Assembly (NCBI GenBank): GCA_009192285.1
Contig: CM018603.1
Span: 4,208,588-4,272,587 of the forward strand
Source of the DNA: Morchella semilibera
Taxonomy: Eukaryota > Ascomycota > Pezizomycetes > Pezizales > Morchellaceae
Length of the DNA: 64,000 nt
Direction of reading: 5' to 3'
Below the pieces are notes generated by a model. That model did no database searches and was not told where the DNA came from. It worked only from the letters and a program-made list of their open reading frames with translations. Below, piece after piece: positions 16,501 through 62,401 of this stretch; the first letter of the stretch is position 1; every line of letters starts with the position of its first letter. The translations under genes were made by a program, and so were the position numbers.

Positions 16501-17099
16501 GAAAACACATCTGCGTAGTCTTGGAATTCTTCCGGGATAGCACTAGCGAGAGTCTCGCTTCCCGTGTTTCGTGCCCAGAAAGGGTGTGACTCGAGAGGCA
16601 TGTCAGGTTCAGGCATGTGTCGTAGAAGTCTGACGACCTTTTCTTGCCAACCTTCTTCGTACATGTCTCCTTCTGTCATCATACATCCCTTAATCTGGCA
16701 CTTGATACTATTGAAGGTAGCCTTATTCTGGCCCCAATGTATCGTGGGTTGATGCTCTTCGAGCCATCGATGTGGTATGACGAGATCTTCTCCGGCAAAG
16801 GTACCTATTTCACAGGTGACTAGCCGGTCGAGGTGGCTACCAATGCGGAGTGTGAGAGGTTGGGTAATGTGAGTACCGGAGTGAGGCATACGTGAGCCAT
16901 CAGCTTGTTTGATGAGGAGAGTTGTGGTGCGGGTCTGAACCGGGATGTCGGCCTTCTTAACACAGTCCCAGGACATTATCCATGTCTCTGTGCCGCTGTC
17001 TAGTAATGCTCGGACAGTGTGGGTGAAGTGTTTGTTGGTTTTAGGGTTAAGCCAAGAGATTTCTGTCTCAAGGCGAGTTTCTTTGGTGATGGTAGTCAT
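13551..17099 (-). CDS. pol: Ty3/gypsy Pol polyprotein
   Basis: This 1,182-residue polyprotein copies and integrates the element. Counting from the ATG at 17099, it shows an aspartic protease (ALLDSGTETWI, Asp34), a reverse transcriptase with MPFGLTNAPA and the catalytic box YLDD (377-380), and RNase H acidic residues Asp526, Glu568 and Asp595. The integrase has an HHCC zinc site (His787, His794, Cys824, Cys827) and the D-D-E core (Asp856, Asp916, Glu952). The basic C-terminal tail lacks a chromodomain. The frame stays open upstream to 17201 without another ATG, so an upstream extension or frameshift fusion with Gag is possible. The gag stop lies 390 nt before this ATG. No internal stop or missing catalytic residue was found. 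Confidence 0.95.
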   Translation of the reverse strand: MTTITKETRLETEISWLNPKTNKHFTHTVRALLDSGTETWIMSWDCVKKADIPVQTRTTTLLIKQADGSRMPHSGTHITQPLTLRIGSHLDRLVTCEIGTFAGEDLVIPHRWLEEHQPTIHWGQNKATFNSIKCQIKGCMMTEGDMYEEGWQEKVVRLLRHMPEPDMPLESHPFWARNTGSETLASAIPEEFQDYADVFSPEGAGRLPKHSEWDHTIPLLDGSQPPWGPIYALSPPEQKALREYLDEMLAAGKIVPSSSPAAAPILFVPKQDGSLRLCVDYRGLNSVTVKNRYPLPLMTELADSTKGALFFTKIDLKNGYNLVRIAEGEEWKTAFRTKYGHFEYKVMPFGLTNAPATFQAMVNTIFKDLLDQGLVVYLDDILIYSKSREEHIALVRRVLERLRQNHLFGNLKKTAWFQTEVEFLGFKLSGSGTQVSPEKVKAITEWLIPTKVKELQCFLGFANFLRRFIYGYSAVCKPMTDLLKKNAVWKWGREQQDAFEGLKKLFTTAPILRHYDEHRMAVLETDASDWAEAAVLSQVFEDGKLHPVAYHSRKFNEAEVNYEIYDKEMLAIVSALLTWRHWLEGTDIPIQIYSDHQNLQYFTTTKKLSRRQARWAEKIAPFHFKIHFRPGDKNGKPDALTRRPEYAMEGGVVREQPVKMLLSPEHFAERNLLPGHFARRTQAGIEPREEILCNRSSEVCPVDQWVHIPGVGMPAALQNWYEEEGRWTRRIVPDEFPENEDPEDLWTRQTILREAATEWDPDQNTATHEGRWVVPGHAVKQVIEDHHDRPTAGHLGRDKTLELIDRNYWWPGMTTDVAKYVSTCDVCQRAKQRRRHMSLPQPLELATTPWCDISMDFVVEMPKERSSFRNVMVVVDRFSKMAHFIPMTGINAEQTAQAFVKDIWRFHGLPRSIVSDRGTQFVSAFWTAITERLGIRRRLSTSFHPQTDGQTERTNQHMESYLRAFTAGTGKKWRDLLPICEYAYNNAKHSSTGQSPFYCNYGFHPRSDWPTDVEIEQLDAEGNNHLDEILAAHELARETLQQTYDKMASRPGPAVQQFELGQKVLLDTRNLGGYNKWSDKFTGPFEVLAKIGNRAYRLDLPADWKVHNVFHEMLLRPYREDADPNRKQNTRKRLATPEPQEALADENAKPVVSNRPRTRSQATVAPESGARQTKRQRRLAEQ

Positions 17100-17488
17100 T
17101 GTGGCGTGGGTTGTAATAATAGTAGAGGAGGATGGTAGATGCTCTTCTCCTCGAGGCGGATGAGGTCCCTTATATAGCCAAGTGCGGGGTAGCTCTGACA
17201 CGTCATACCCAAAGAATACCTTGCCCTAGTCACGAGTTCCTACTTTGCATTGGCAGTCTCTCCACAGGGTTATGGCAAGTCAACAGTACGCAGTGCGTCT
17301 ACTGTCCGCTATCTGTGTGGCCCCTCTGATTTCTGAACTTCTAGACTCGAGTCTTGGTTTCTGGTATTGGCCATTGCTTCCTCGTAGTATGGTTTTTATA
17401 AAGAGATTTTATTTCCGTGCCCTAGTAACTAATTTATTCATAACCCAACAAAAGAAAACCCATAAGAAATATAACCATTTTAAACATT

Positions 17489-19927
17489 TTAATCTTCCCC
17501 AAGTGCCGTAATCCTAGCCCTAAATGCCTCGCCTTGAGGTCCCAATTTCTGCCTTTTCTCACTCTCCCCTTCCGGTTCCTTCGTCCTCGAGGGTTTATTC
17601 TCCCGTTTCCTTTTCTTCCCACTTGATCTTTCCGTACCACTTGCCATTCTGACTTTAGTGGTCGAGTAGCATTCCTTTGTCCAGTGACCTTCTCTTCCAC
17701 ACCGGAGGCATTTATTCTCCTTCGTCCATTGGTCTTTCTCTGCTTGGGTGGCTCCCAGGCTACCAGTAGCTGGTCGAGGTTTGTTTGGGGAGTCCTCTCG
17801 TTCCTTTCTATGGGGACGGGACTCATCATGCTCCTTTCTACGGGGGCGTGGTCGCTGGCGTTTGGTTTCTTGGTGCTTAGGTTCTCGAGATTCCTGGGGT
17901 TTTGCTGGTTCTCTTCCTCGCAGAATCTTCTGACGGGCTCTGACTTCAGCATCTTTTCTCCCCACTCTTCGAACCCATGCCAACCAATCTGGGAACTCAG
18001 ATGGTTCTTCAATCGCGGCTGATAGTCTTTGTTCTAACGTGGAGTTTATTCCTGTTAGAATCATGGACTTCATGACGATTGGGCCTACTCGAGCGTCCCA
18101 CTCAAGATTTTGCATCTCGTTAATGTAATCGTCAATAGGGCCAACTTGACGGAGATTATCCATCTTCTGTTTAGCCTGTTCTTGACTGGTGCGATTACCA
18201 TACTGGATGCGAAGTTCCTGCTTGAAACGTTCCCAAGTACCGAGCCTAGGTTCTACACTAAGCCTTTCCTTAAAGTTGCGCCAGAAACTTGCTGCACTCC
18301 CGGTGAATTCCAGGGATGCCCAAAGGATTCGAGTCTTATCATCCCAGGTGACTCGGGGTTGGAGGTCCATTAGGATCTCCATTCGATCGATCCAATGGCG
18401 GACGTCTTCGTCGGGTTTACCAGAGAAGGGGATTTTGGCCTGCTTAGGGGTTTCTCCCTTGCGATGGCTGCGGGAAACCGGTGACTGCGTCTCTGCTCGT
18501 CGGTGGTGCCTGTCCCGTCTTCTCTTTGGTCTCCTATCATCATCGGAGGAGCTGGATGAGTCCGATGAGCTTGGACTGTCATCCCTCCTGTGCCTTCTTC
18601 TTCCTCTTCCACCACCATTTCCTCCACCATTTCCTACCGCTCCCTTCTCCAGTACAGGCTCCTCCTCCCTCCTACGTTTACCGTGGGATCTTCTGGGTGG
18701 TGGAGACGGGGATTTACTCCTCCTCCTGTTGGCTGGGGGTGAGGGTGGCGGTGCCCTTCCTTCTCCTGGGGAATCCTCCTCAGACTCAACCCGTGGCTGC
18801 TTTCCCTTAAATGCTTTCAGGGCTACCTTCAGCATTTTCCTCAACTCTGGCTGGATGGCATCGGCAATGGGGGTAGGCGCCTTTGGTGGTGGGGCTGCCT
18901 GTGCTGCTGTCACAGTTGCCGCTAGTCCCTCGGGTAACTCCAGGTTTTTCTCCGCTTGCTGAGCCTGTATATAGGCAGCTAGCGCCTGGGTTTGTTGCCG
19001 TTGTTGCTCATTTTCGAGGGCCATTTGTCTGAACCTTAGCTCAGTTGCTGCCTGTTGGTTTTGCGTATAGGCTTGGAACTGGCTAGCCAAAGTACCGAGG
19101 GCGGTGCTTATCTGCCCTTGTTGTCCTTCTACCTCCCGGAACTTCCCTTGTAATTCCCCCACTAGTTGTTGTCCGCCCTGGACTACCTGGCCGTGTTGAT
19201 GCTCCCTTGCCCTGGCTTCTGCCTGAAGGGCCCAGTCCGTCTGAGCCGCGAGACCTCTCATGCCCTGGACGAGTACCTCGGTCCTGAGGGGTCGTGGGGT
19301 CTCCTGCTCGGAGAACTGTTCGCCGAAGGAGGAGGTGCTTGCGTGGCTGGCGTCGCTCATATCCCCATCCGAACCAGAGCGCCTCACTGTAATAGTGGCC
19401 TGCTTGGTTGGAGTTTCGAAGGGGTTGAGGTCCATGCTGGCAGAGCTGCGCGTGATCCTCTTCGGGTCTCGCTTGCGGACCTTCTTCGGGGCTTTGGCTT
19501 TGAGGGGGGCAGGGTTCCATAGCTCTGTGGCGGGGGTGTCCCTGGCTCTGCTGGCTATGGTGGGTGGGCCTGGGCCATGGCGGTGTCTTTGTCTCGGACC
19601 ATGATGGCTTCCGCCATATCTTGGTCTTCCCGCGAGGTTAACGCTAGTGGGCGGGACATCTTTAAAGAATTCGATGGGGAGGTCGGGGGTGTTGATGCAC
19701 CAAGGTAGAGGAGTGAACCAAGGTACCGAGTGCGCTAAGCCGTGAGAGTTCTGGCGAAGCGTTATGAGGATGGAGGGGGTGGAATTGGGTTCAAGGATGT
19801 TCTCCTTGAAGGTGGCAATAGTGCGAGCTTCTGAGAAGAAGCCTTGGTGTTGGAGGTAGCCGCAGTAGAGATGTTCTGCGCTGCCTCGAGGAACGAGAAA
19901 AGAGGTCTCACAGGGGAAGCGAAGCAT
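17489..19927 (-). CDS. gag: Ty3/gypsy Gag protein
   Basis: This 812-residue structural protein forms the virus-like particle. The N-terminal 240 residues are variable. A glutamine-rich probable coiled coil follows (about 225-330), then a Ser/Arg/Asp-rich linker with runs of S and D. A retrotransposon Gag core starts near residue 499 (FSGKPDEDVRHWIDRMEIL) and runs to about 650. A CCHC zinc knuckle, CLRCGREGHWTKEC, lies at 740-753. The start at 19927 is an ATG 235 bp inside the 5' LTR. It is unusually long for a fungal Ty3 Gag (the second element's is 471 aa) because of the low-complexity N-terminal half. Confidence 0.93.
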   Translation of the reverse strand: MLRFPCETSFLVPRGSAEHLYCGYLQHQGFFSEARTIATFKENILEPNSTPSILITLRQNSHGLAHSVPWFTPLPWCINTPDLPIEFFKDVPPTSVNLAGRPRYGGSHHGPRQRHRHGPGPPTIASRARDTPATELWNPAPLKAKAPKKVRKRDPKRITRSSASMDLNPFETPTKQATITVRRSGSDGDMSDASHASTSSFGEQFSEQETPRPLRTEVLVQGMRGLAAQTDWALQAEARAREHQHGQVVQGGQQLVGELQGKFREVEGQQGQISTALGTLASQFQAYTQNQQAATELRFRQMALENEQQRQQTQALAAYIQAQQAEKNLELPEGLAATVTAAQAAPPPKAPTPIADAIQPELRKMLKVALKAFKGKQPRVESEEDSPGEGRAPPPSPPANRRRSKSPSPPPRRSHGKRRREEEPVLEKGAVGNGGGNGGGRGRRRHRRDDSPSSSDSSSSSDDDRRPKRRRDRHHRRAETQSPVSRSHRKGETPKQAKIPFSGKPDEDVRHWIDRMEILMDLQPRVTWDDKTRILWASLEFTGSAASFWRNFKERLSVEPRLGTWERFKQELRIQYGNRTSQEQAKQKMDNLRQVGPIDDYINEMQNLEWDARVGPIVMKSMILTGINSTLEQRLSAAIEEPSEFPDWLAWVRRVGRKDAEVRARQKILRGREPAKPQESREPKHQETKRQRPRPRRKEHDESRPHRKEREDSPNKPRPATGSLGATQAEKDQWTKENKCLRCGREGHWTKECYSTTKVRMASGTERSSGKKRKRENKPSRTKEPEGESEKRQKLGPQGEAFRARITALGED

Positions 19928-20162
19928 GTACTATCCTCTTGATCACTACTTCTTATACCGAGTGCCCGTGTACTATCCGTACCTAGCAATCACACAAGGT
20001 AATCGAAGTGTTGTCTTGAGTAGTAGTAGGTTCGCTTATAGGAGGAGCAGAGTTGGACAAAGAGTCCAGAGGTTTTCTCTGATTGCGACGTGGAGGCGGA
20101 GGTACCAGTAGATGGCTCTCTCCACAGTCATAGGGTATGCGACCGGATAAGGTACAATATAG

Positions 20163-33306: not shown

Positions 33307-33509
33307 GAATTGCTTATAGTTTTGCTTACAGTTTTTGACAATTCTTTTCCTTCGTATATGATTCTCTCCAAATGACCATTGATTATGCCTTAACGGGCTC
33401 TAAATGGGCACCAAGTACAATCTTCTTCACCCTTTTGGGTTTAATTAATGGTCTTTTCGAAATTAAGTCTTTTTAAAACCATGCTGCAGTATTAGTGCTC
33501 AAAATCATA

Positions 33510-33521
33510 CAGTACCAGAAA
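33510..33521 (+). repeat. Left terminal inverted repeat
   Basis: CAGTACCAGAAA, the exact inverse of 44186-44197. With the flanking TA the match extends to 14 bp. Confidence 0.65.
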
Positions 33522-33529
33522 ATGGGGAG

Positions 33530-33920
33530 GTTTTCATACCGAAGTACTACCGCAGTACTGCGGTATGAAAAGAAATACCGTACTGTTGGCACAATGCGAT
33601 CATAATACGGTATTGCTATGAATATAGTATTGCTAGACTCCCGTAATGTTGAAACAATGCGAGTTAGTTGCAATACGGTGTGGCTGAGAATACCGCAACA
33701 ATACCATAGCAGTACGGCATGGCTAACCGAGCCCCCTACGGTAGTGTTACGGCATTCTTACGGCAGTACCCACACCACACCACACCCTGCAAATACCGCA
33801 CGGCTACCACACCACTACCGCACGAGCCCCTGGTATTGTCTTAACAATGCTTGGATCTGCTGCCGTAATGCTGCCGCATTTTTTCGTGACGTACCGCAAC
33901 ACTGCCGCATTGTTCTGCAA
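33530..33920. repeat. Left subterminal dyad cluster
   Basis: Dense copies of TACCGCA, TGCGGTA, TGCCGCAT and AATACGGTA in both orientations, including the perfect 18-bp palindrome TACCGCAGTACTGCGGTA at 33548-33565. The same vocabulary recurs at the right end (43975-44175). Such subterminal motifs are binding sites for transposon proteins in CACTA-type elements. Confidence 0.65.
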
Positions 33921-34284
33921 AATAAGGCATGTATTCCATCAATTACTACACATGCCATATTGACCTATAGTCCTTTTAAAAGAATACAAGTCATTTATAA
34001 GTGTATTCTCCATCTAGTAACCAGTTGAATTATTGCATGTATGTCCGTATATTACATACAGTTGTTTTTTTCATGTATTTTACTATTTAATATACAGTTT
34101 TGTTTTCATTGTATGCCTATAAATCACATACAGTTGTTTTTTCTCTGTATTTTATTATTCTACATCAAAGTGCCACAAACCATCTATTCGCCTCAGACAC
34201 TCACCTACAGGAACTGATAACTGCAATGAGATGTTCACCAGCTGGTTTAGACGGCGATCAACACAATATTATAGCAGACACATG

Positions 34285-35075
34285 CAGTACTACACGCGCA
34301 AGTTAGTAAACTGACGCGTTGAGAATTGGAAGTCAAGAGAGGGCATTCACTTACCAGATCATGATACACGCGACTCTACACGACATGTATGTGAATGTCC
34401 TACACACGAGAATTAGTAAACAATGTATTTTCTGATAGGAGCGGCTATTCGTTTACCAGATTACTATGATACACGCGACTACTACACGTACATCTACTAC
34501 ACGAGAATTAGTTGATAATCGGAAATCAAGAGGGGGGGCATTTACAGCTTAAAAATAATAAACACAACATTATCAACGCTACATCACATTACATGAGAAT
34601 TAGTGAAGGTGCGGTTTGCGTGAGAGGATGGGGAGGCTTACAATGATGGACACGACACCGTTATGATGAACACACTACACGCGAGAATTAGCGAACTCAT
34701 TATTGTGGTCGGGGGTGGGGAATTACAATAAAGACACCACATTGTTATTATGTTAAACTACACGCGAGAATCAGCGAGCTCACCAATAGGAGTAGGATAA
34801 CTTCAGTACCGTACCAGATTATTATGGTAAACACGCGAGAATTAGTAAACGTCGTAGGATGGGAGGGGGTGTCTACCAGATTACAATGAAAACATAACAA
34901 AAAACTACACGCGAGACGCGAGATGCGAGGGTTAGCAAAGGTGGTGAAGAGTGAAGAAGAAGGTGGGATAATACAGAACACACAACTACACGCGAGATGC
35001 GAGATGCAAGATGCAAGATGCGAGATGCGAGGGTTAGCAAAGGTGGAGGTGGTGAGGAAGAAGAAGGTGGGACAA
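34285..35075 (+). repeat. Degenerate minisatellite, ~72-112-bp period
   Basis: Nine copies of ACACGCGAGAATTAG variants, near 34293, 34405, 34499, 34588, 34677, 34758, 34830, 34909 and 34989. Several are followed by TACCAGATTA-(C/T)-ATGATACAC. Spacing shrinks from about 112 bp to about 80 bp toward the gene at 35236. The last units break into short GAGATGC repeats. Confidence 0.65.
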
Positions 35076-35235
35076 TGCAGAGAAGGCGAGAAGAAGCGAG
35101 GGGAGGTGATCTGCGAAGATTTTCAACCCTAAACAACACCCCTGCATATTTCACTTGGCATTATCTCCATAGCCGAAGCTCTATAGATCTACATGTACAG
35201 TACCTGTAGTTATCTCCTAAATCAAGCAAATCATC

Positions 35236-36147
35236 ATGAGCACAACCAGGAGAGACTGCGGCATCTGCGGTAAGAAATTCACAGGAAAGACGGCGGATAC
35301 ACGTTACAAGGCTCACTGTAAGACCGAACATCTCGAATTTTACCGAACCTCCATCAGGCCTTTAAAGGATCCCAAGCTTATCAATCGAGAGGCCTATCTT
35401 AAGCGCAAGAAAACAAAACCCGATGTTGTTGAAGTGCAGCAGACGATGTCTCGGATGAGGCGAAAGGCTCGTAATGAGCAGATACGAGCCCTGCAGAACC
35501 GATCCCCACCTGAACCCCCTGCCATTCCAGAAGCGCCCTTCATCGATGAATTCAACCCATTTTACGTTGCGAGCGCCGAGTTCGGTATCTTCATCGGTGT
35601 CACATATGCACACCTCCTTGAGAATTCCGTCATGGTCTCATTGGAGCGATATGAATCAGCCCTTAATCTAGCCCCCCGCGTCGCTTCTCTGTTGAAAGGA
35701 GCGCTCGCTCTGGGAAGGAGAGATCCAATCGCCACTCTGGCACGTCGCTACCACAACTACCGCCGTAGTCTCATAGCGGTAGAGGACTATCCGGAACAAA
35801 AAAAGAAATACGAACAGTTGCTTGAGCGACATATCAATAAGCAACAACATCCTGAGCTCTGGGTGGACGAGGAGCTGCTCACTGCCCGTGCCATGCAGCT
35901 ATATGCGGAATATCAGTTGAACAAAGTGGCCACGGCGCAGACTAGGGCAGAGAACGATGGCGGTGGGGATGACGATGAGGATGAGGATGAGGATGAGGAT
36001 GAGGACGATTCCGAAGGCGATACCAACGGCGCTATCGACCCTGGTCTACAGGTTGATACAAGAGTAGCGGTTGGGAGGGAGGTCGGAGGTATGGTGGCTG
36101 GGGGGCAGGCGGTGGGGACATCGAGCGAAGCTGTTGTTGGCAATTAA
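35236..36147 (+). CDS. C2H2-type zinc-finger protein of the transposon
   Basis: A 303-residue single-exon protein. The N-terminus has a C2H2-like finger, CGICGKKF...HCKTEH, with likely ligands Cys8, Cys11, His27 and His32. A basic stretch follows (KRKKTKP, then RMRRKARNEQ at about 75-90). The middle is mixed alpha-helical in character. An acidic run of alternating Asp and Glu lies at about 245-262, before a Gly/Val-rich tail. A DNA-binding nuclear protein is likely. By analogy with the TnpA-type proteins of CACTA elements it may recognise the subterminal repeats, but no family match is claimed. The ATG at 35236 follows the minisatellite and has A at -3. It converges with the gene at 36597-38288. 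Confidence 0.7.
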   Translation: MSTTRRDCGICGKKFTGKTADTRYKAHCKTEHLEFYRTSIRPLKDPKLINREAYLKRKKTKPDVVEVQQTMSRMRRKARNEQIRALQNRSPPEPPAIPEAPFIDEFNPFYVASAEFGIFIGVTYAHLLENSVMVSLERYESALNLAPRVASLLKGALALGRRDPIATLARRYHNYRRSLIAVEDYPEQKKKYEQLLERHINKQQHPELWVDEELLTARAMQLYAEYQLNKVATAQTRAENDGGGDDDEDEDEDEDEDDSEGDTNGAIDPGLQVDTRVAVGREVGGMVAGGQAVGTSSEAVVGN

Positions 36148-36465
36148 CAATGCATTTGTATGCCAAGAATAATTCATGATTCATGGAGGCCTAACGATGT
36201 AACACTCATTCCTAGAAATTAAAAATACAAGGACAGCTGTTACACAAAACATACATGTAGGGAATCGGATGTTCGTAAGCAATGGTAAAACATTTACGCG
36301 ATACAATGGAATATGTGAAACGAAAAAAAAAGGGACAACATGGACTTAACTCCCGTATATCAGATACAACTGGTTAACTGTGCAAAAATATATAGCAGCA
36401 GATGGGTTGGCGAATATGGGGGTATGGCGATACTTGGCTAACAACTCAGATCGGGGAATAAATAA

Positions 36466-36560
36466 ATGGGGGAAAATGAAGGAAAATGAAGGAAAACGAA
36501 GGAAAATGAAGGAAAATGAGGAAAAATGAAGAAAAATGAGGAAAAATGAAGAGAGGGAAA
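36466..36560 (+). repeat. GGAAAATGAA microsatellite
   Basis: About eight units of GGAAAATGAA/GAAAAATGAG between the convergent genes of the transposon, just past the stop of the minus-strand gene. Confidence 0.8.
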
Positions 36561-36596
36561 AAAAAAACTAGAGACCCCCGATTGCTTCGGTGCCTG

Positions 36597-38288
36597 TCAA
36601 CAAGGCTGTCGGGTTGAGATGGTCGTGGCAGGTGAGGAGGCGAGGGCAACAACTGTTGCAGTCGGCGCGTTGACAATGGGTGCCAGCTCTGATGAAGGTG
36701 TGGCGGAAGCGGAGGCGTGGGGGGGTGGCGGGGTGGCGGTTGTGGTGGTGGGAACAGCTACGGAGGCGGGTACAGGGTTGACAGCAGCGGTGAAAAGGGG
36801 GGCAGCAGGAGCAGCAGCAGGAGCAGCGCCAAACGGAGCAAATAACGGGTCCAGTTCGGCCAGGTTCGTCGGTTTCTTCTTTCGAGTAAGTCTGGTCTTG
36901 TGGACGGGCTTTTCCGGGATCGTCACAATTAAGCGCTCGTGGAATGTACTGAAGGCGTCATTGCTAGCCACCAGCAGTAGACGTTGGTTGCACGCTTCAC
37001 GGTCCAGCTTATTCAACTTCAACATATGAGTATAGCTTATTAAAACGTCAGCTATGAATGGGTAAGGTGTTAGAAAGCGGAGGAGTACTTACACCATCGT
37101 GTATACAAAAACCGTCTTATAGAAATTTTCAGCCTCGGGCTGAAGCAACGTAGACCTCCAATCAACAAACGCAGAAGTGCTCCCGACCATCAATTGGAAC
37201 CAGGATTCCAAGCTCCAGTGGTTGGCATATACTGTCCTCAGGTGGACTTCATCAAGACTAAGGTAATGCGCACACTCAGGCTTCTCGATGATGGCGCCCC
37301 ACATTTCTTTGGCCTGGCGATTATACTCTTTGAGCCAGTTCTTGCGCCATTGGAGCATCCGGTCCCACGCCAACGTAAACTCGGGAGTATTTCTCTTGAC
37401 AATCTGGGCAGCAGATGTGTCAATCAGATGGCTAAACCGGCTCTCCGGAATTGTGAGGTATCGGGCAAATGCCATACGGCACATGCGATTCAGCGCGCCC
37501 CACACACAGTGGGTGGTTCCTGGATAAAGACCAGCAAACCTTGACTTATCGTATGCGCGCTTTCGGGGCTGCTCCTCTTCGGCCAATGCTTCTTGTTGAA
37601 TATATGCATCCAAAACTCTTTGGGCCTCGTCCGGTGATAAGTCAGTGGAAACCTGTTTTGAGAGTGTCAATAATATATATCAACTTACGGGGGTTCCTAT
37701 ACATACAGTGATCGTTGGTGCGGCTTCTTCATCTGATTCGGCTAGAGCCACAGTCCTCTGAGCGGAAGCGGGGGTCCTCTGAGCGGAAGCGGGGGTCCTC
37801 TGAGCGGAAGCGGGGGTCCTATTGACACGTTGACTACTCACTACGATAGGATCATCATATACATCCTCTTCATCGTCTATGAAATCATCGGCAGAAAACA
37901 TCGGACGTTGAGATTGACGGGTTTCCTCATCAGCTGATGGTGTATGTTGAGGTGGGCGACCCCCTGCTCCACCACGACGCCCGTTACCAGGCCTTTGGCT
38001 CTGCGAAACCTGCGATCTCCCTAATGTTTCCTGCGAATCACGTACGTTAGGGGTGGGGGATTCTTGACGGAATAATTCTCGACGTGATAGATCGGCCAGA
38101 CTGACTGTGCTATGCCTGCCCGGGCGGTGAGGAGTATATGGATCATCTCTGCGAACCACAGGGCTGCTAGATGGATGTGCTCGATATGCTCCTACCATTG
38201 TTGTCGACGATATGGGGATTCCGAGATCAGCGACAATACAATATTCGCACAGCTTGGCATCTAGATTAGTAATACACTTTATCACCAT
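36597..38288 (-). CDS. Unknown 526-aa protein of the transposon
   Basis: Three exons on the minus strand: 38288-37707, 37652-37093 and 37035-36597. The introns are 54 nt (GTATGT...ACAG) and 57 nt (GTAAGT...AAG, with GCTGAC branch site). All junctions keep frame, for 526 residues. Exon 1 is disordered, rich in Arg, Ser and Pro, and contains three RTPASAQ repeats from a 21-bp tandem repeat at about 37754-37818. The middle (about 195-400) is a compact, aromatic-rich region (for example HYLSLDEVHLRTVYANHWSL). The C-terminal part is Ala/Pro/Thr-rich after a basic KKKP stretch. I do not recognise a family. It is transcribed away from the 38698 gene, so the 38289-38697 interval may be a shared promoter. 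Confidence 0.65.
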
Positions 38289-38697
38289 TTGATGTCATGT
38301 GACTCACATGTACTACAGGTACTGTACTCGTATCCCAACTTGATATGTGAGACGAAAAACAATGTTTTGGCTGATAAAAGTAGCAAAAGGTACGAGATTG
38401 TTAGTGATGAGAGTGATGAGAGTGAGCAGAGAGGGGAGATGAAGTCAGCCTGGTGGGGGGTCGAAATAATCGAGCCAGTACAGGCACAAGCTCCAGTGTC
38501 CCGCTCCCGCTCCCGCTCTCATCATTAATCCATGTCTTGCCCGTGTGCAGCGCGTCTCTCTTGTCTCCTTTCTATTTTTCTCCCTCCCTTGTTTCCTTTC
38601 CATCATTTTTCTCCCTCTTGCAGAAGCCAATCTCATCCCTCAATCCAACAAAATCATCCCCAAAACCCATCCAATCATCCCATCATACGACAAAAAA

Positions 38698-39214
38698 ATG
38701 GATACAACCATCTCTACTACAGCTATGGATAAGTACATCAATATTGTCTGTAAGTAGATGAAAAAATCACGGGCATATACGTTTCTAACGCACAATAGAC
38801 ATCGATAACGACCTCGTCGGTGGAAGACACCCGGTCGTCGGAGAGACATACGAGTTAGTTTTGGCGGATACCATCAACACCAAGTATCCCATCCACGGCG
38901 TCCAGCTCCACAAAGATGGTCGTCCCAGTGGATGGGTGAGAGAGATTGACAAGGGCGCTGTGAAGGGAGTTCTAGACCGGGGCGGGCTTTGCTCATGTGT
39001 CATCACTTCGAGGAGGGACTTCATTTGGGACGATGACACATGCTGCTGGGGAACTGCCCGCTGGGTTGTCCTATTCGACCCCAAGAAGGAGCTTGGAGAA
39101 AAAACCGTGGGTGACATCGACGAGAAGGGTGCGAAAGTTAAGGTTGAAAATGAAGATGAACATGAAGGTCTCGGTAATAAGATTGGGTTTTTTTGCGACC
39201 AAAGAGGAGGATAA
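38698..39214 (+). CDS. Small HIRAN-like protein of the transposon
   Basis: Two exons (38698-38749 and 38799-39214) joined across a 49-nt intron (GTAAGT...AATAG) give 155 residues. The core resembles a HIRAN-type fold: GETYELVLADTI, HGVQLHKDGRPSGWVREID, then a helix and LCSCVITSRR. HIRAN domains bind DNA ends in repair proteins. The match is by eye and tentative. A seven-T run at 39188-39194 appears to shift the frame near the C-terminus. With six Ts the frame would stay open to 39272, adding an acidic Lys/Glu-rich tail. Whether this is a mutation or a sequencing error cannot be told. A 23-A run follows at 39302-39324. Confidence 0.55.
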
Positions 39215-39301
39215 GGACGGGGTTGTTAAGGAGGAAAAGTACAAACAGCTCGAGGGGTCTGACACAGAGTAAAATACATGAAAAATGTACGTGTAGTCAG
39301 T

Positions 39302-39324
39302 AAAAAAAAAAAAAAAAAAAAAAA
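39302..39324 (+). repeat. Poly-A run (23 A)
   Basis: A homopolymer just after the small gene at 38698. It could be a mononucleotide repeat or a scar of a retroposed sequence. No target duplication was found around it. Confidence 0.7.
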
Positions 39325-39893
39325 GATTGGAGTCCTATACACTCAACCGTGATGAAGTTATGGCTTTTATCTTAGAATGTATAATATATGAATTATTGAT
39401 CAACCAACCCATCGGGGCGAACGGGTTTTATGTTGGTGCTACGGGTTCTTGCTGCTTGTGGTGCTTGTAATGGGCTTGTGGTGCTTGTAATGGTTTGTGC
39501 GTTGCTTTGTGCATTGGAATGGCGCATAGACGAGTGATATACTATGAGATGATAAATGCATGTGTGTCTTGGCGATCATCCATGGTGATCGATACAGGGA
39601 ACGCGTATTAGATTAATGAAACGCCGAGATTTATGCGCCGATTTTTTCGTTTCGTTTCGGCCATGCGGGCTTCACAAATGCAGTGTCTTCATCTACGTCC
39701 GGTTCCAACATAGAGGCACCAAAAATTTTTACCCCGGTATATCATCACCAGCTAGATATCAAGACCAATATGGACGGAAAACGACCGCGTGGATGGCTCC
39801 CACCCTTAGAGCCCTCTAGGTTCAGAAGACGCCGTTTCGGTACGATAACACCATCAATACAGTCTGTCTACATGTAGTGACTAACCTGCATCG

Positions 39894-42800
39894 ATGATAG
39901 AAAACCCAGAAGATACAGCCCAGCCTCTGCCCATGCCAGAGTCATCAACGAACGAAAATTTCGCGCCTCAAGATGCCGTACCCGCGCCCGGTATACCCGC
40001 GCCTCGATCCCCGTTTCATGTATGGGAGGACCCCCCAGATCATAATCATAACCTAGAGGCTACGATAGAAGAAGATGTTGAGCCAGTTCCGGAAGACGAC
40101 ATGCGCGTTCTACAACCGATACAAACCAATCTTATGGGTGTGGATTGGAGCGGAAACAACAAAGAGGATGATTACGGGCTGACCCAAGAAGCTGAGGACG
40201 AGAGAGAAACGGTTGGGGGGGGTTATTTGGATGATATCGGGATCGGGGAAGGAGAAAACAACCAAGCTCTGGAACAAGATAAAGACGACGACACTGCATA
40301 CTTTCCGCCAAATGACGAGCTACAGACAGAACACACACAACACGCGACTCAAAACAATGTGGGCGATCCTCCAGCGGCAGAAAAATCAAATGATAGGGAG
40401 AGTGTTGTCGTTGACGGTAGAAACGGGCGTGTTTCGATCATTGCGGGGAAGAATTCCATCTGGCACTGATGCTATTTGTGACAAGTGCGGACCTTTCGAC
40501 AACCCAATACGAGGCACTCACAGAGGTTCTGGCACTAGCTACTACAGAGACGATAAGATCGCTACCTAAATCCATCAAAACTCTACAGCAGAGGTGTCGA
40601 AGAGGGTTTCCCCTGATGCAGCTCAAAGGGAAACCAGTAGATGTCGACCTAAGACAGATACCACCAAAGAAAGAAACGCCTCGGAACGCTTACTTTTTCG
40701 AGCCTTCCGAGTACTGCAAAGTATGGTTAAGCAGCCCGACGATTAGGCGGAGTTTGCACCAGGGACTCGGGGAGTACGTCGACGTCGCTTCTGAGCTCTG
40801 GCATGGGGATGCGTGGATGGAGAGTGTGAGGTCTACATCCGGTTCCTTTGCGTATATAAAAGAGGGGGATACAGCAGCAGACCACAGCGTCCCGCTCTTA
40901 CCGTCCGACTGCGTCCAATATACAAACTCAGAGGGAGTAACTGCTATCGGTAGAGTGAAATGTATAGGGATAGATAAGCGTCAGGGAAGTAACCAAGTAT
41001 CTGCGCTTATAAACCCTTTGATTCCTCCGCTCGAGCTGCGGGCAGAGTGGGAAACGCCTGACAATTCACCCGACCCTTTTCCAGAGTACGCATGGGTTGA
41101 CTCTAATTTACCGGAGTTGATACTAGTCGAGCACAAAAGGGAAATCGTTCCCTGCACCGATATCCGAGCTCGAGTATGGGTGCACTTTACCGATTACCCT
41201 TCTGTCAACGATCTACGCCAAAGCCTCCTTCCAGAATTACCAACGTTCTGTGTACGCCTGGTAGCCTATAGAACCAATAGCGGTGGATATCACATAAGAG
41301 CTGTTCACAAACGACACCGGGTAATTGCAGAGATAGAGCTCAAGGAAATGACACGTGATTATGTCCTGGCTAATATGGTCACCAACCAAGGATTGAGCAA
41401 TCAAGCGCCTAGGATAAGCGTACCCTATTCTGTCTTCCTGGACGGTTTTGGTTTATACAGGAACGCGTACTACAGTCTAAAGGGAATGTATCTGACGCCG
41501 GCGGGGTTGAATAGATGCGAACGAGCTAAATTGAATAATATGTACGTGCTTATGATCGGACCATTCGGCTCTCACGAACAGCAAATGGCGACCTGTTTAG
41601 AGATGGATGCATTAGCAGTCGGCAAAGGTATCACCATGGTACTAGACTCAGGCGAAGAGGTGTTCGTTACTGCCTTTCCTCTGCTTCTGACGGGGGACAT
41701 GCCTCAACAGAATCAAAACTCGGGAGCGAAGATACATAAAGCGACATACGGGTGTCGCTCGTGCTTTATAGCAGACGCCGATCGAGGGAACCTGTCGTTC
41801 AATGAGCAACACCATGGGAGATACAAGCAGCATGTGAGACTAATATACGATAATGCGAAGTCACGACCCACAAAGGCCGGGAAAGAAGCGGCTCTGCGCA
41901 GAGCTGGATTGTCGGATACTGGGCCCTTTTTCGATAACTGCTATAAGATGATGGACCCACAACGTAGCACACCAAACGACCCCATGCATGCCGAGCTCCG
42001 CCTCTGCAAATACTTCGAGGAAGCAGTACTGGAGGCCATGTTGTCGACAGAGGGAACCAAAGCTTATTTGGCGGCATGGAATATGGTACAGGTGCCATAT
42101 GGATGGGGCCAACCACAAAATCCTGTCAGCCACAAGGGCTCGATGGTTTTCAATGAACACGGAAGGATAGCGATTATCAACCCCTTTGTGCTGATGCATA
42201 TGTTTACCAACGATTGCTGGACCTACCACCCCGATGAGGTAAGGAATAATAGCTTGCTACTGCGGCGAGCACGACTGTCCTATGTCAAGCCTCTAGTGGG
42301 GAAACGTTTATCAGACGAGTTCGGCGATCCCACGGGGGGGATCGCCAAGACTGCGTGGTTGTTGGCTAGATGCGTGGCTTTGACCCTGCAGGAGAAGATA
42401 TCGACATCCGAGAGGTCTAGATTCACTCTGACCATACTGCAAGTGAGTATTATTATACCTCATGGAACCAGGAATATACACATCTATGGAGATCACGTGT
42501 AGTAGCGTGTATGATATTTTAAAAACTACATGTATCTGACTTTTGTCCATAGGCTCGACACAATCTTCAGAGGATATTCAGATGCGCAGCAGGGGATCGT
42601 GACGGGAGGAAGTTCAAAAATTATGTCACGGTCCCCAACGTACACCTAGCTCTCCATTACCAAGAGGACATACAAAACTACGCCACGGCCAGGAATAGTT
42701 CCACGATGACAGGAGAGCAAAAGCACAAGATCTTCAAGCTCCACGCACCACATACAAATTCAAAAGAGAACGATTTACAGTTAATGAAGGCAACGAACAC

Positions 42801-43509
42801 CGCACAGACAATCACCTTCATGCTGGCTGGGGCCTTTCAATTATCCGCGCCTAGGGTCACCGCTCAACTAACTAGCGTCGTAAACAAATGCCCGAAAATG
42901 TGCACGCGGTTTCTAGGGGTTACGAAGGACATGGATGGCGAAGATGAACCAATACACGCATCTGTGCAAACCACAGGAATAGACTGCGAGGGATCGTTTT
43001 TTACTAAAGCCATTACAGGGCTCGCAGTGCCTATAAAGAGGGTCTCACCAGGGGACTACGCATATGATGGCGATACTAGGTGCAGTGTGTACCAAGCGGA
43101 ATATGACACCGAACTACTACCACAAGTGCGTGTTAAAGTGCACTACTGGCGATATTTTTCCGGAGTGCCTAAAGGAGAAGAAGTGGGCCGCAAAGCAAGG
43201 CCCTTCAAAATCCGAGAGGGCCAAATAATAAAAATGAATGACGGGGCTCATTCCTTTCACTATGTTAGCAGGATTTTTACGATTAGTGTAGGGACTATGG
43301 TGCGGGTTTTGTTTGTAGTGAAACCTTTAGGATATGTCGCCGAGGAGGTCTCAGCAATGGCACCGGCTTACAAAGTGTTCCGGCTGCATGATTCTGAACC
43401 AGAGATGACAATTGGTATCAGGAGAATTGACTGCCGTATGATGCATTTCGTGTCAAAGAACAACAAAGACACATGGTGGTATAATCCGTATCTACCAAAC
43501 TTTTCTTAA
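39894..43509 (+). CDS. Plavaka-like DDE transposase
   Basis: Proposed three-exon gene: 39894-40401, 40452-42442 and 42553-43509, for 1,151 residues. The second intron (110 nt, GTGAGT...CATAG) is clear. The first (50 nt, donor GTGTTG) is inferred because it restores frame and joins into KFHLAL, a motif usual before the conserved domain. Residues 1-169 are acidic and disordered. The RNase-H-like core shows FLDGFGLYRN (Asp500), LLTGDMPQQNQNSG (Asp585) followed by GCRSC, and TPNDPMHAELRL (Glu684). These are the D-D-E positions and cysteine pair of Plavaka/CACTA-related transposases. No stop or frameshift breaks the core. If the first intron is wrong, translation could start at the ATG at 40469 (976 aa). 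Confidence 0.85.
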
Positions 43510-43519
43510 TATTATTTAA

Positions 43520-43800
43520 TTAATACATTTGATTTCTTACATGCGGTTTTGACTCTTAGGCGGATGCAGTTGATTTATCAAATCATTTTGTAAGGGTGTT
43601 ATATGCTATTATTGGTAAAGCGAATACAGTTGATTTACTAGGTTGTTCTGTGCCATTCTTACATGCAGTTTTTGCTGTTAAGCGAATGCAATTGATCTAT
43701 AAGATTATTTATATGTGGTGATTGCATGCAATTATCAACGTTCTCCTGCTTGAGTGAATACAGTTGATTTATCAAACTATCTTTGTGGGCGTTGCATGCT
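43520..43800 (+). repeat. Right subterminal tandem repeat
   Basis: Four degenerate units, 75-105 bp apart, each containing GCGAATACAGTTGATTTATC or close variants and ATGC(A/T)ATTAT. They lie between the transposase stop and the right dyad cluster. Confidence 0.65.
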
Positions 43801-43974
43801 ATTATCGATCGCTCTCCTGTTTGGGGTGTGTGTGTCAAATTTCATTGTATTCTATTCGAGATTACAAGGGTGTGTTGACTTGAACGTCTTACGTGCTAAA
43901 TATCAAATTATTGTGTAGATTGAATACAAGCAAGTTTTGACATTAAGCGTAAATGCTAAACTATGGCGCCAAGC

Positions 43975-44175
43975 GGAAAGGAATACCATGATAATACGGT
44001 ATTTCTGGAAATGCGCATTGTTTGAGGATTATGTACTTCATTAAATGCGGCAGGGATACTGAGTTGTTACTAGTGCGCATTCATACCACTACATGGGTAC
44101 TCACGACTGCCGCATTCGGCTAAACGCGGCAGGACTGCTGAGGGACTGAGGATGCCGCATCACTACCGTAGTCGC
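43975..44175. repeat. Right subterminal dyad cluster
   Basis: AATACGGTA, AATGCGGCAGGG, GACTGCCGCATTC, ACGCGGCAGG, GATGCCGCAT and CTACCGTAG occur in both orientations. These are the same motifs as at 33530-33920, which ties the two ends to one element. Confidence 0.65.
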
Positions 44176-44185
44176 CACATACTGA

Positions 44186-44197
44186 TTTCTGGTACTG
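44186..44197 (-). repeat. Right terminal inverted repeat
   Basis: TTTCTGGTACTG on the plus strand, the inverse of 33510-33521, followed by TA. Confidence 0.65.
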
Positions 44198-44224
44198 TAC
44201 TTATAGAAATATCCGAACTGGCGC

Positions 44225-44450
44225 TAAAGTAGCTTATCTTACCTTACTTTCAAGAGGGCGGTATAGGGTAAGTCTGCAACGATGTCTTTATCCTGGTGTC
44301 GTGGTGTGTGGTGGGGAGAAACATACTCGCTCGCATACACTAGATGTCCCCCAGCTAATGTACTGAGAGGGATATCATGACCGCCCACCTCATTACTCAC
44401 ACGCCTCATTACTCACTGCAGCAGCACAACGCAAGCTTCAATACATGTAG
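44225..44450 (+). repeat. R1 downstream module
   Basis: AAGAGGGCGGTATAG, GTGTGGTGGGGAGAAACATA, CTCCAGCTAA-like, ATCATGACCGCCCACCTCAT and GCAAGCTTCAATA. These recur in order at 31090-31290, 48140-48330 and 51795-51960. Here it abuts the right end of the DNA transposon. Confidence 0.6.
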
Positions 44451-52248: not shown

Positions 52249-53182
52249 TACATCGATATGTATGGTGGCACGGTAATCTATCCTGAGTACGGGGATAAGA
52301 AATGATAATTCTGCATGTTTTGGGCTCAAGAAGTGAAGTTATCTTTCGCACTGGATATATACCAATATATATCGTCCTGTCTGGATAAGTATCCTATATA
52401 TCGTCCTGTTAGGATATATATTATCCTGTTAGGATATGAATTGTCCTGTCAGGATAGGTGTTTCTCGGGGGCATGAATATCCTGACAGGACGATATATAT
52501 CCTGACAGAGCGATACATATCCTGACAGGAGAATCCTCAGCCGTGCCCACCCCCAGCCGTGCCCGCCCTCAGCTGTATCCAAGAACCGCCTGCCGCGCTC
52601 TGCCGAGCCATCACGAACCTTTTCAGCTTCATCACCCGATCATCACTAAACTACTATATGCATCACCGCCCACATCAATAGCACCTTCAGATCATCTCAT
52701 CCATCATTGGGCTTGCCAGAGTTGGGGAACACAATAACTACAAGAAGTATTTGCACATGAATCCGAGCAAAACAAGTCGGAGTTTATCTACTACTGTTCT
52801 AATGATCTTGATAGTTGGCATTAATGATGGTGAAGGTGAGAAGCTGATGGTGATAGTGATGGCGATGATGATGATGATGGTGAGGATGATGAAGTTAGTG
52901 GTTTAGCTTGCTGCCCTGCCGTCCCCGCCGCTATGCCGTCCCCGCCGCCCTGCCGTCCTCGCCGCCTGCATGATAGCTTATACCCACTCACCTATATGAT
53001 AGCTTACCATACAACGATGATATCCTATCGAGGAGTGGAGATATGCCTATCCCAAAAACTCGTGAAAGTGCACGAGTTACGCAACTGGAGGTATAAAGCA
53101 TCCTTGGTTTTAGGATACATTAGTATGGGAGGTTTTCATCCTCTATAGACAATAAGTTATCTTTTCGGCTCATGTACCACAG
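52249..53182 (+). repeat. 0.9-kb tandem duplication, copy A
   Basis: A head-to-tail duplicate of 53193-54090. Shared blocks in order are GTACATCGAT-TGTAT, GTGAAGTTATCTTTCGCACT, palindromic CCTGACAGG cluster, TTTTTCAGCTTCATCACCC, CATCCATCATTGGGCTTGCC, GATGATGATGATGATGGTGA, GCCCTGCCGTCC repeats, and CTCGTGAAAGTGCACGAGTT. The CTCGTG...CACGAG block is itself a perfect small dyad. No coding frame is conserved between the copies. Confidence 0.7.
52380..52535. repeat. CCTGACAGG palindrome cluster
   Basis: On the left side of the cluster are several TATCGTCCTGT(T/C)AGGATA units. On the right side are inverted ATATCCTGACAGGACGATA units, around a short centre near 52460-52475. The whole block can fold into a long hairpin. 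A smaller version lies at 53310-53410 in copy B. Confidence 0.65.
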
Positions 53183-53192
53183 AGCCCCTGTG

Positions 53193-54090
53193 GTACATCG
53201 ATTTGTATAGTGACACGGTAATCTATCATGGGTATCGGGATAAGAAATGATAATTCTGCATGTTTTGAGCTCAAAAAGTGAAGTTATCTTTCGCACTGGA
53301 TATAGACCGATACATATAGTCCTGTCAGGATAGAAGAGCATGGATATCCTGAAAGGATGATATATATCCTGATAGGACGATATATATATATCCTGATAGC
53401 ATGATATATTGCGGCTAGCTGCCGCGCTCTGCCGAGCCATTACAAACTTTTTCAGCTTCATCACCCAATCATCACTAAACTACTATATGCATCACCGCCT
53501 ACATCAATAGCACCTTCAGATCATCTCATCCATCATTGGGCTTGCCAGAGTTGGGGAACACAATAACTACAAGAAGAATTTCCACATGAATCTGAGCAAA
53601 ACAGGTTGCGGTTTATCTAATGATCTTGATAGTTGGTATTTATGATGGTGAAGATGAGAAGCTGATGGTGATAGTGATGGCAATGATGATGATGATGGTG
53701 ATGGTGATGATGTTAGTGGTTTAGCTTGCTGCCCTGCCGTCTCCGCTGCCCTGTAGAGGGGGTTGGATGGCGGGACGGCAGGGCGGCTTAGCGGCGAGGA
53801 TGGCAGAGCGGCAAGGACGGCAGGGCGGCGAGGACGGCACGGCTGCCTGCATAATAGCTTTTACCCCCCTATCTGATAGCTTTTACCCCCTATCTGATAG
53901 CTTACCATACAGCGATGATATCTTATAGGAGAGTGGAGATATGCCTATCCCGAAAACTCGTGAAAGTGCACGAGTTACGCAACTGGAGGTATAAAGCACC
54001 CTTTGTTTAGGATACATTAGTATGGGAAAAGGACCCGAGAATTTCATCCTCTATAGATAATAAGTTACCTTTTCGACTCGTGTACCACAG
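53193..54090 (+). repeat. 0.9-kb tandem duplication, copy B
   Basis: Collinear with copy A with moderate divergence. It also has an extra inverted array of GGACGGCAGGGCGGC units at about 53760-53850, opposing the GCCCTGCCGTC units just before it. Confidence 0.7.
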
Positions 54091-60466: not shown

Positions 60467-60965
60467 TGTCAACACGCCCACTATCACGGCGTGGAACATG
60501 GTCTAGTGGTGTTGCGGGAAGAGGGATTAGTCAGGGATTCTTCTAGGTTCTTTGGGTTTCGGAAGCAGGGGTTTGGTTCGGTAATAGGGGTTAGGGATTA
60601 GGAGATAAGGTCGGGTTCGGAGTTACGGTTCTTGGGAGATGTTATGAGGTTCTGTATAAGGTTACGTGGATAGGTTATTGTGTTAGTATGTGGTGTATAT
60701 ATAGGGGTTTCGTCCTCGCTTGTAAATAGTTTCTTTTCTTTCCTCTTCACGCAACCTTCCTATCTTCAGGAGTTTGTAGTCCTTTAGAATATACTCGGTT
60801 CTCTGGTTCTACTTCGTGTCTCGCCTCGCTCCCATAGTCTCGCCTCGACCCACCTCGGATAACCTATCTTCGTCCCGCCTCGGTAGTATACCTTGGCCCT
60901 CCGCCTAGTCTTCCGCATCGCCCCGTGATACTAAGGTTGCGTCTCCAACGCCAACCTATACTACA
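60467..60965 (+). repeat. Probable 5' LTR/leader of second Ty3 element
   Basis: The interval before gag has LTR-like features: a possible start TGTCAACACGCCC at 60467, a TATA-like GTATATATAGGGG near 60709, then a C/T-rich R-U5-like region. Its partner LTR lies outside the window, so neither end nor the primer-binding site can be fixed. Confidence 0.4.
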
Positions 60966-60985
60966 CATATCGATATAAACCTACC

Positions 60986-62401
60986 ATGTCACACGCAGAC
61001 CCTATGGAAGAGTCAGAAGGACTCTACGAGATCCTCCAAAGGGATCTTGATACATTCGTCGCCGCACACCCCACCGTCGCTGACGACGCCAGCGAAGAAG
61101 CCAAGAAAATCCACGACCTAATGTTCCGCGCCCAACAAGCTGTCAAGCAGCTTATAATAAACTGGCAGGAAGAAATAGAGGATGGGGATGAAGCTCGAAA
61201 AGAATGGACCAAGAAACTCACAAAGTTGGGAAGGGAGAATCAAGAGCTCGAGGGACAGATAACAGTCCTCGAAACTCAGGTCACCACCCTTCAAACCCAA
61301 GTAAGAACTGCAAACCAAGCAACGCAATCCGCCGAGGCCGCACTCGCCGCCCAGATTGCACTCCCGCCTCCTCCTCCGCCCCCGGCAGCAGACCCTATCC
61401 CGCCACCTCCTTCTCGACGTCGCAACCGCCTCTTAGAAGGCATTGCCCTTACCCAAGAACCAAGACCTGAAAGGTCAGAAAAACTTCCGGACCCAGAGAA
61501 ATATCGAGGAAACAGGAAGGGACTTCCGCAGTTCCAAAATATGTTGAAACTCAAGCTCTTGGGCAATGCCGACCGATACCCCACCCTTCAGAATCAATTA
61601 ACCTATGCCATCTCTCGCTTGGAAGGCCCTGCCGCCGACCAATTTATGCCATATATTACCACCACCGGGATCAACCTCCCCTCCATGGAGAGGTTCTTTG
61701 AAATTTTAAATACAGCATTCGGCGACCCAGACCAGGTAGGTACTGCACGTCGCGCCCTCAGAAGAATCAGGCAACTCAATCGTCCCTTCTCGGAGTACTT
61801 CGCCGAGTTCCAACGATACGCCGCCGAAGCTGGAATGGGAGAGACTGCCAATGTGGAAGCCCTCATGGAAGGTCTGAGCGAGGAACTCACCAAGCTCATG
61901 GTCCACGAGGAGACCCCCGCTACCGTTATCGAACTCGCCACCATTCTCCAACGCTTGGACAACAAGCAGCAGATAATTACTGCTCGCTACCGTCCTCGCT
62001 ACCAGGCCCCCGCACCCCAAGCTCGTCCTGCACCCCGTTATCAGGCTCCTGCTGCCCCCGCACCTCGGTACTCAGCCCCGCCTCCTCCGGCTCCCCGCTA
62101 CCAAGCTCCCGCTCGCCCCAACCCCCCTGCTGCTCATCCGTCTCACACACCAGGAGGAGTAGTTCCTATGGATTTGTCAACTGGTCGTGGCCGCCCGGAC
62201 CCCCAGGAAAGAGAGGCCCGCCGCGTAGAGAACAGGTGTTTTTATTGTGGAGGTGTAGGACACCTCGTTAGGGAATGCCCGCAGGCGCCGGCTCCCAGGA
62301 ACCCAGCCCCCAGGATGAGGGGAGCTAGGGCAGATATTAGAGGAGAAGAGAAGGAAGAAGCCTCCGGCGATGAGGCGTTAAAAGATTTTTCCCTGGACTG
62401 A
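60986..62401 (+). CDS. gag: Gag of a second Ty3/gypsy element
   Basis: A 471-residue intact Gag. An acidic N-terminus is followed by a coiled coil (about 60-125), a Pro-rich hinge (PPPPPPPAADPIPPPP), and a Gag core (about 160-330; YRGNRKGLPQFQNMLKLKLL, then MERFFEILNTAFGD and FSEYFAEFQRYAAEAG). A long Pro/Ala/Arg/Tyr-rich repeat region (APRYQAPA units, about 330-385) precedes a CCHC knuckle, CFYCGGVGHLVREC (418-431), and an acidic tail. The ATG at 60986 is in good context (ACCATGTC). It is not closely related to the 812-residue Gag at 17489, so two Ty3 lineages are present. It is intact although its pol is broken. Confidence 0.9.
   Translation: MSHADPMEESEGLYEILQRDLDTFVAAHPTVADDASEEAKKIHDLMFRAQQAVKQLIINWQEEIEDGDEARKEWTKKLTKLGRENQELEGQITVLETQVTTLQTQVRTANQATQSAEAALAAQIALPPPPPPPAADPIPPPPSRRRNRLLEGIALTQEPRPERSEKLPDPEKYRGNRKGLPQFQNMLKLKLLGNADRYPTLQNQLTYAISRLEGPAADQFMPYITTTGINLPSMERFFEILNTAFGDPDQVGTARRALRRIRQLNRPFSEYFAEFQRYAAEAGMGETANVEALMEGLSEELTKLMVHEETPATVIELATILQRLDNKQQIITARYRPRYQAPAPQARPAPRYQAPAAPAPRYSAPPPPAPRYQAPARPNPPAAHPSHTPGGVVPMDLSTGRGRPDPQEREARRVENRCFYCGGVGHLVRECPQAPAPRNPAPRMRGARADIRGEEKEEASGDEALKDFSLD

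Follow-up and report, generated by a model that had tools for sequence, protein, structure and literature searches.

The CMCT clade of DNA transposons is described as having transposases with the motif order D, D, C(2)C, H(3-4)H, E, 5'-CA..TG-3' ends and target-site duplications of 2-5 bp (PMC12730594). In the same account by Kojima, fungal EnSpm elements have 3-bp duplications and CAC..GTG ends, the termini given for PlavakaA and PlavakaB are TGT..ACA and CATCA..TGATG, and TET/JBP genes have been exchanged between transposon superfamilies (PMC12730594). For non-plant CACTA-type transposons, the SmTRC1 paper argued that an element-encoded partner of the transposase must exist and reports no conserved one (PMC1636069). 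Here we describe an element in a 64,000-nucleotide stretch of the genome of the ascomycete Morchella semilibera (assembly GCA_009192285.1, contig CM018603.1, positions 4,208,588 to 4,272,587 of the forward strand; hereafter the window), which carries a transposase gene and three accessory genes, namely a zinc-finger gene and two genes that we call G2 and H. We read it, with a probability of about 0.78, as a cut-and-paste, EnSpm-related (CMCT) DNA transposon that inserts at TA and has G2 and H as regular co-factors.

The presence of a mobile element with exact ends is confirmed. It occupies window positions 33510-44197 (10,688 bp) and is bounded by the 12-bp terminal inverted repeat CAGTACCAGAAA (33510..33521, + strand) and the perfect inverse of this repeat (44186..44197, - strand), with a TA target-site duplication read from the sequence on each side (33508..33509 and 44198..44199). 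The insertion lies inside a repeat of ~145 bp (window 33400-33509 plus 44198-44240) that is common in the genome, its left part being matched at at least 37 places. Nine of these 37 left-flank matches were compared as candidate empty sites (L007-L015). The joined flanks were matched by all nine; the alignment passes the junction by 29-35 bases in eight of them and by 3 bases in L009, and TA stands at the uninterrupted site in seven of the eight long-aligning copies, with TG in L012.

A second full-length copy, on contig C23, ends at identical bases and carries the same four genes. It is flanked by TA at a target site that differs from the ~145-bp repeat. Its match to the window sequence (33508-44199, TA to TA) falls into two pieces, 99.6% identical over 10,516 columns and 99.4% over 180; the alignment shows 25 substitutions and 5 small differences in length. 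The division is caused by a 143-bp insertion in the C23 copy, near window position 33686. The window copy lacks this insertion, which is possibly a small non-autonomous element. These two are the known full-length copies, a lower bound since a query with the whole element listed neither of them. The genome comprises 56.8 Mb in 23 contigs, of which the pairs C9/C10 and C21/C22 appear to be near-duplicates, with matches recurring at nearly the same places, so that their loci, although counted singly, are not independent. Diverged relatives at C1:3820039-3835864 and C1:4654999-4664650 also have CA..TG ends adjoining TA, and for a relative on C5 the right end alone was located. The inverted ends beside TA reported in a first-pass annotation, made by a model from the letters of the window alone, are thus borne out by further copies and empty sites. 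That annotation would have been overturned by copies ending elsewhere or by accessory genes that proved to be ordinary host genes; the C23 copy shares both ends, and homologues of the accessory genes adjoin transposases in nearly all cases.

The transposase gene (39770..43509, + strand) is modelled with exons at 39770-39839, 39901-42442 and 42553-43509, and is open in C23, where it encodes 1,189 aa. Two alignments of 8 sequences each, some of them partial, cover its catalytic motifs. Invariant in alignment A1 are the first catalytic Asp (FLDGFG, 41441..41443), the second (GDMPQ, 41696..41698) and both Cys of the C(2)C motif (CRSC, 41753..41764); invariant in alignment A2 are both His of the H(3)H motif (HLALH, 42643..42657) and the presumed catalytic Glu (GEQKHK, 42715..42717), all on the + strand. 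The resulting order D-D-C2C-H3H-E is that of the CMCT clade, and the ends and duplication of the clade are found in four elements: the window copy, the C23 copy and the two C1 relatives. In the relative at C1:3820k the transposase gene is split by ~6.3 kb (C1:3826075-3832376; L020, L006); the part of this insert that was read holds an open frame that by eye resembles the integrase end of a retrotransposon.

The three further genes that had been proposed between the ends are present, with plausible introns in those that are spliced. The zinc-finger gene (35236..36147, + strand) is intronless, with 303 codons including the stop, and its product has an N-terminal C-x2-C..H-x4-H motif and an acidic C-terminal half. 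Gene G2 (36597..38288, - strand) encodes 526 aa in exons 38288-37707, 37652-37093 and 37035-36597, the limits of the first and last exons having been derived by hand from the sequence, and has an invariant WRKNW in its conserved domain. The small gene H (38698..39214, + strand), with exons 38698-38749 and 38799-39214, encodes 155 aa in the window and 174 aa in C23.

A four-gene element of this kind had been expected to be unusual, an expectation that does not hold for G2 and H. Sixteen loci of this transposase were compared, comprising 15 matches of at least 40% identity and a remnant on C2 seen in translation. G2 lies near 15 of the 16 and is missing at C14; its only two unlinked matches have an E-value of 0.30, so that there are no clear stand-alone copies. 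H lies near 14 of the 16 and is missing at C14 and C1:4076k, with the caveats that it is ~8 kb away at C19 and that its matches at C1:6002k and C21:2092k are weak (E 0.0019). The zinc-finger gene is near three of the 16. The window, C23 and C1:3820k elements carry, in order, the zinc-finger gene (+), G2 (-), H (+) and the transposase gene (+). Most of the loci with three genes have G2 (-), H (-) and then the transposase gene (+), and the C19 and C1:4076k loci are rearranged. No G2 or H match was found near distant transposases of 30-35% identity (C2:3133k, C4:2627k, C1:2780k, C1:2774k and C1:1150k). Three of these places, L036 (C2:3133367), C4:2627206 and C1:2780501, represent a second transposase family, 35% identical and with the same D..D..C2C and HxxxH..E motifs.

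G2 and H have also diverged in step with the transposase. Across six elements, protein distances of G2 correlate with those of the transposase with a Mantel r of 0.98 (reached in 2 of 720 permutations) and those of H with an r of 0.78 (7 of 720). In two pairs of elements, the proportions of nonsynonymous over synonymous differences (pN/pS) were 0.28/0.80 and 0.18/0.84 for G2, 0.36/0.85 and 0.26/0.75 for H, and 0.19/0.83 and 0.11/0.87 for the transposase. Synonymous differences are saturated, and we therefore state that pN is far below pS and give no exact ratio. G2 and H are under purifying selection and look like working parts of the element, whose biochemistry we infer.

H is shared with a second and very different group of transposases. 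It matches 28 places in the genome (25 and three more), of which 14 are at this transposase family, one is ~7 kb from the C2 remnant and 11 lie within 10 kb of a match to Transposase_21 (PF02992, EnSpm/CACTA), 10 of these within 3 kb; the twin contigs supply two of the 11. The EnSpm-linked copies are divergently oriented in 10 of 11 cases, the exception being C17:421k, and at C21:860k the EnSpm transposase beside H was read directly. Some of the EnSpm-linked copies seem, by eye, to have the same gene structure as H here, a short first exon followed by the domain. The two homologues near neither type of transposase, C17:105k (C17:105170) and C16:1033k (C16:1033145), are possibly stand-alone genes or remnants. 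The zinc-finger gene matches six places, three at this family, two EnSpm-linked and one near neither; the two EnSpm-linked genes are divergent from weak Transposase_21 matches that lie 3.5-4.5 kb away.

In an H tree of 19 rows the EnSpm-linked copies fall in two places, and they were single-sided in none of 200 bootstrap trees. A single EnSpm-linked group was rejected by the approximately unbiased test (p 0.033), a result that changes to p 0.137 without the doubtfully linked C19 row. The tree alone would also allow H to have been inherited vertically from a common EnSpm-like ancestor, and within this family H evolves faster than the transposase. Set against vertical descent, H of the window or of C1:4658k is 38-50% identical to two EnSpm-linked copies on C21 (30-34% when H is taken from the family members on C5 and at C9:916k), across lineages whose transposases align at 19% identity over 202 columns. 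Exchange of H between lineages is likely, with repeated exchange not established, and we infer from these patterns that accessory genes have probably moved between transposase lineages.

The distribution of subterminal motifs bears on the role of the zinc-finger gene. The left cluster of TACCGCA/TGCGGTA and TGCCGCA/TGCGGCA (33548..33959) has 8 sites in 450 bp, a density not equalled elsewhere in the window, and three TGCCGCA/TGCGGCA sites lie in the right subterminal region (43948..44185). TACCGCA/TGCGGTA occurs 6 times in the left 450 bp and once in the 9,988-bp interior, and TGCCGCA/TGCGGCA 3 times in the right 250 bp and once in the interior; the counts of 6 and 3 were reached in none of 300 shuffles. 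Since TACCGCA is missing from the right 250 bp of the element, the two ends have a common motif type and not one exact word, which upholds the earlier report of clusters at both ends while limiting the exact word TACCGCA to the left one. The shorter motif CCGCA/TGCGG occurs 8 times per 450 bp at the left and 3 times per 250 bp at the right of the window element, 8 times at the left and 5 at the right of the C1:3820k element, twice per 450 bp at the left and not at all per 450 bp at the right of C1:4655k, which lacks a zinc-finger match, and once per 400 bp at the C5 right end. The zinc-finger gene and dense CCGCA clusters thus go together in two families with the gene and two without, a pattern that is suggestive only. 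The first-pass annotation had made the zinc-finger protein the partner that binds the subterminal repeats. Being present at only 3 of 16 loci, the gene cannot be a general partner of the transposase, and what survives of the proposal is that both families having it show dense clusters. An EnSpm-linked zinc-finger locus on C3 speaks against a general rule by which the zinc-finger protein binds [TG].CCGCA, having 1 site in 6,701 bases, in an element neither end of which was located.

Under the interpretation that we favour, the DDE transposase would most likely recognize the CA..TG ends and subterminal repeats, excise the element and join the DNA at TA; cut-and-paste is the mode to be expected from what is established about DDE transposons. 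The helical G2 and the small H, whose genes lie immediately upstream of the transposase gene, divergent from it or on the opposite strand, would act as regular co-factors, probably in recognizing the ends, assembling the complex or escaping silencing, by analogy with TNPA of maize En/Spm. The zinc-finger protein would be a later addition in one sub-lineage, serving as a lineage-specific binder.

Several results weigh against this interpretation. In the window itself a one-base length difference from C23 breaks the transposase frame near 40.43 kb, giving a stop after 212 residues; an assembly error may lie behind the break, and the D-D-E and C..C motifs attributed to the transposase by the first-pass annotation are present and invariant even though the window frame is not intact. 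The last transposase exon found no Pfam or PDB relative, and neither did G2 and H, for which the PDB profile searches gave single chance-level matches with alignments A3 (E 1.2) and A4 (E 0.79). A single-sequence structure prediction of H was unusable (mean predicted local distance difference test score 36.5). A sub-threshold match to the Plavaka family of Pfam (PF18759), spanning the D2-C2C region, was obtained for 2 of 8 transposase members, the best with an E-value of 0.0022 and 17.7 bits against a cut-off of 26.3. Comparison of alignment A9 of this transposase lineage with EnSpm transposases of the same genome by hhalign put both Asp, the C2C motif and a DPMH motif in register over the 202 columns (P 0.0022), which speaks for the EnSpm link, but the HH-probability is only 13% and the profile similarity weak. 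Finally, EnSpm and Plavaka profiles score about equally well against each other (P 0.0015), so that placement nearer EnSpm rests mainly on the A9-Plavaka comparison (P 0.21, out of register) and on small alignments.

Family placement could thus be read differently. The first-pass annotation assigned the element to Plavaka, whose transposases have the same D-D-C2C-H-E order according to PMC12730594 and to which the sub-threshold matches point. This assignment is very improbable, since none of the 131 listed Plavaka matches in the genome lies at this transposase family (compared by eye), the best score stays below the curated cut-off, the profiles align out of register, and the CAG..CTG termini are neither TGT..ACA nor CATCA..TGATG. 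As to a direct EnSpm identity, Transposase_21 matched none of the 8 members at E-values up to 10, its 25 listed genome matches all lie elsewhere, the window transposase exons had no Pfam match at E-values up to 1, and the element has TA and CAG..CTG in place of the 3-bp duplication and CAC..GTG ends of fungal EnSpm. A more serious candidate is ESTA, the EnSpm-like, TA-duplicating transposons that Kojima described from rust fungi, in which case the lineage has already been named. The TA duplication together with an EnSpm-like, if weakly similar, transposase is found here, as are the CA..TG ends and the CMCT motif set (PMC12730594). Against this, the likeness is one of description, TA is no proof of ESTA because CNEST of Cryptococcus duplicates TA and yet belongs to another clade (PMC12810828), and no sign of the similarity to RAG1 that is reported for ESTA emerged when A1 and A2 were run by hmmsearch against PDB sequences, which gave no match at E-values up to 10 by a method less sensitive than HHpred. 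We rate membership of ESTA at a little under even odds. We conclude that the transposase is, as far as sequence comparison indicates, a distant relative of EnSpm in a separate EnSpm-related lineage, possibly ESTA; the earlier view of a CACTA-related transposase with three accessory genes in a mobile element is supported.

The nature of the extra genes is likewise open to other explanations. H had been called HIRAN-like, and it could be a true, very diverged HIRAN domain binding DNA 3' ends, such as cut transposon ends. The HIRAN fold is described as a six-stranded beta-barrel with one capping helix (PMC4666394), and the pattern GVQL..DGR.SGWVR..DK...LL..G in H recalls by eye, with no support from any tool, a HIRAN-like order of strand, Gly turn, strand, helix and strand. 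The Pfam HIRAN model (PF08797) matched 0 of 10 H members at E-values up to 10 and matches only two other places in the genome, and hhalign comparison of H with two true HIRAN stretches of the same genome gave P-values of 0.48 and 0.78. Among the papers listed for HIRAN domain with transposase, judged by their titles, none is about a transposon-encoded HIRAN, and the main text of PMC12730594 contains none of the words HIRAN, zinc finger or accessory. The label therefore amounts to a resemblance by eye, and we think such an identity unlikely. The three extra genes could also be host passengers carried along by chance, given that fungal transposons do capture genes and that no listed transposase lies near 2 of the 28 H matches or near 1 of the 6 matches of the zinc-finger gene. 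Chance carriage sits poorly with order and orientation kept at diverged loci, purifying selection, distances congruent with those of the transposase and the lack of a clear stand-alone G2, and we give it very little credence.

A wider proposal joins several steps and is, taken as a whole, tentative. H and G2 could be obligate partners of an unrecognized, TA-targeting, EnSpm-like lineage, with H a swappable module whose fold has yet to be described and which takes the same divergent position in two or more very different transposase lineages (EnSpm and the present one), like maize TNPA but shared across superfamilies; the zinc-finger gene might be a second module passed between lineages, one that decides which of the subterminal repeats is bound. 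Whether or not all of this holds, G2 and H offer a concrete candidate for the partner that CACTA-type transposons outside plants have been argued to encode. They are two genes of undescribed fold, found near nearly all loci of one lineage and, in the case of H, also with a second and distant one, which would widen the superfamily exchange seen for TET/JBP to accessory genes of structural type. Should H prove to be an essential cofactor, it could become possible to define fungal CMCT elements as transposition systems of several components; otherwise the element is a well-bounded case of accessory gene capture. Relatives outside this genome were absent from two viral-contig scans and one genome-contig scan, metagenomes and other fungal genomes not having been searched, and no description of these accessory genes turned up in the literature searches made, which is not a claim on all literature.

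Other features of the window include two large open frames at 13551-19930 (- strand) with reverse transcriptase, RNase H, integrase and gag domains, constituting a Ty3/Gypsy-type retrotransposon, and a 488-aa open frame with gag and zinc-knuckle domains at 60935-62401 (+ strand). Tandem units of 20 and 24 bp (e.g. TATATATTGTCCTGTTAGGA) form several adjacent arrays at 52395-53409.

Compared with known systems, the element shares with Plavaka a broad motif order and a weak match in 2 of 8 members, and differs from it in scoring below the curated cut-off and in its termini, Plavaka being a separate and abundant family in the same genome. CNEST of Cryptococcus neoformans resembles it in having an EnSpm-like, CMC-type DDE transposase and TA duplications, and is described as differing in its length of ~7.2 kb, its 33-bp inverted ends starting with CACGG, its one named gene and its closest relationship to Chapaev and Mirage (PMC12810828). 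EnSpm/CACTA elements have catalytic motifs that align in register with those of the element, and in this genome they are adjoined by homologues of H and the zinc-finger gene; they differ in that no PF02992 match occurs in the members scanned or at the loci, in TA as against a 3-bp duplication, in CAG as against CAC and in the absence of G2 beside EnSpm in this genome. In maize En/Spm, subterminal repeats accompany the TNPA-TNPD system. By analogy the element would be like that system in combining a transposase with an element-encoded DNA-binding partner, whereas TNPA is described as a splice product of one transcription unit and the partners here are separate genes (PMC1636069); no relation of G2, H or the zinc-finger protein to TNPA was detected, although they were not compared directly. 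ESTA, again compared by description, is reported from rust fungi with TET/JBP where the present element has G2, H and the zinc-finger gene, and is like it in TA duplication, CA..TG ends and a D-D-C2C-H-E transposase; ESTA families also carry an extra gene, in their case one exchanged among transposon superfamilies (Kojima 2025, PMC12730594).

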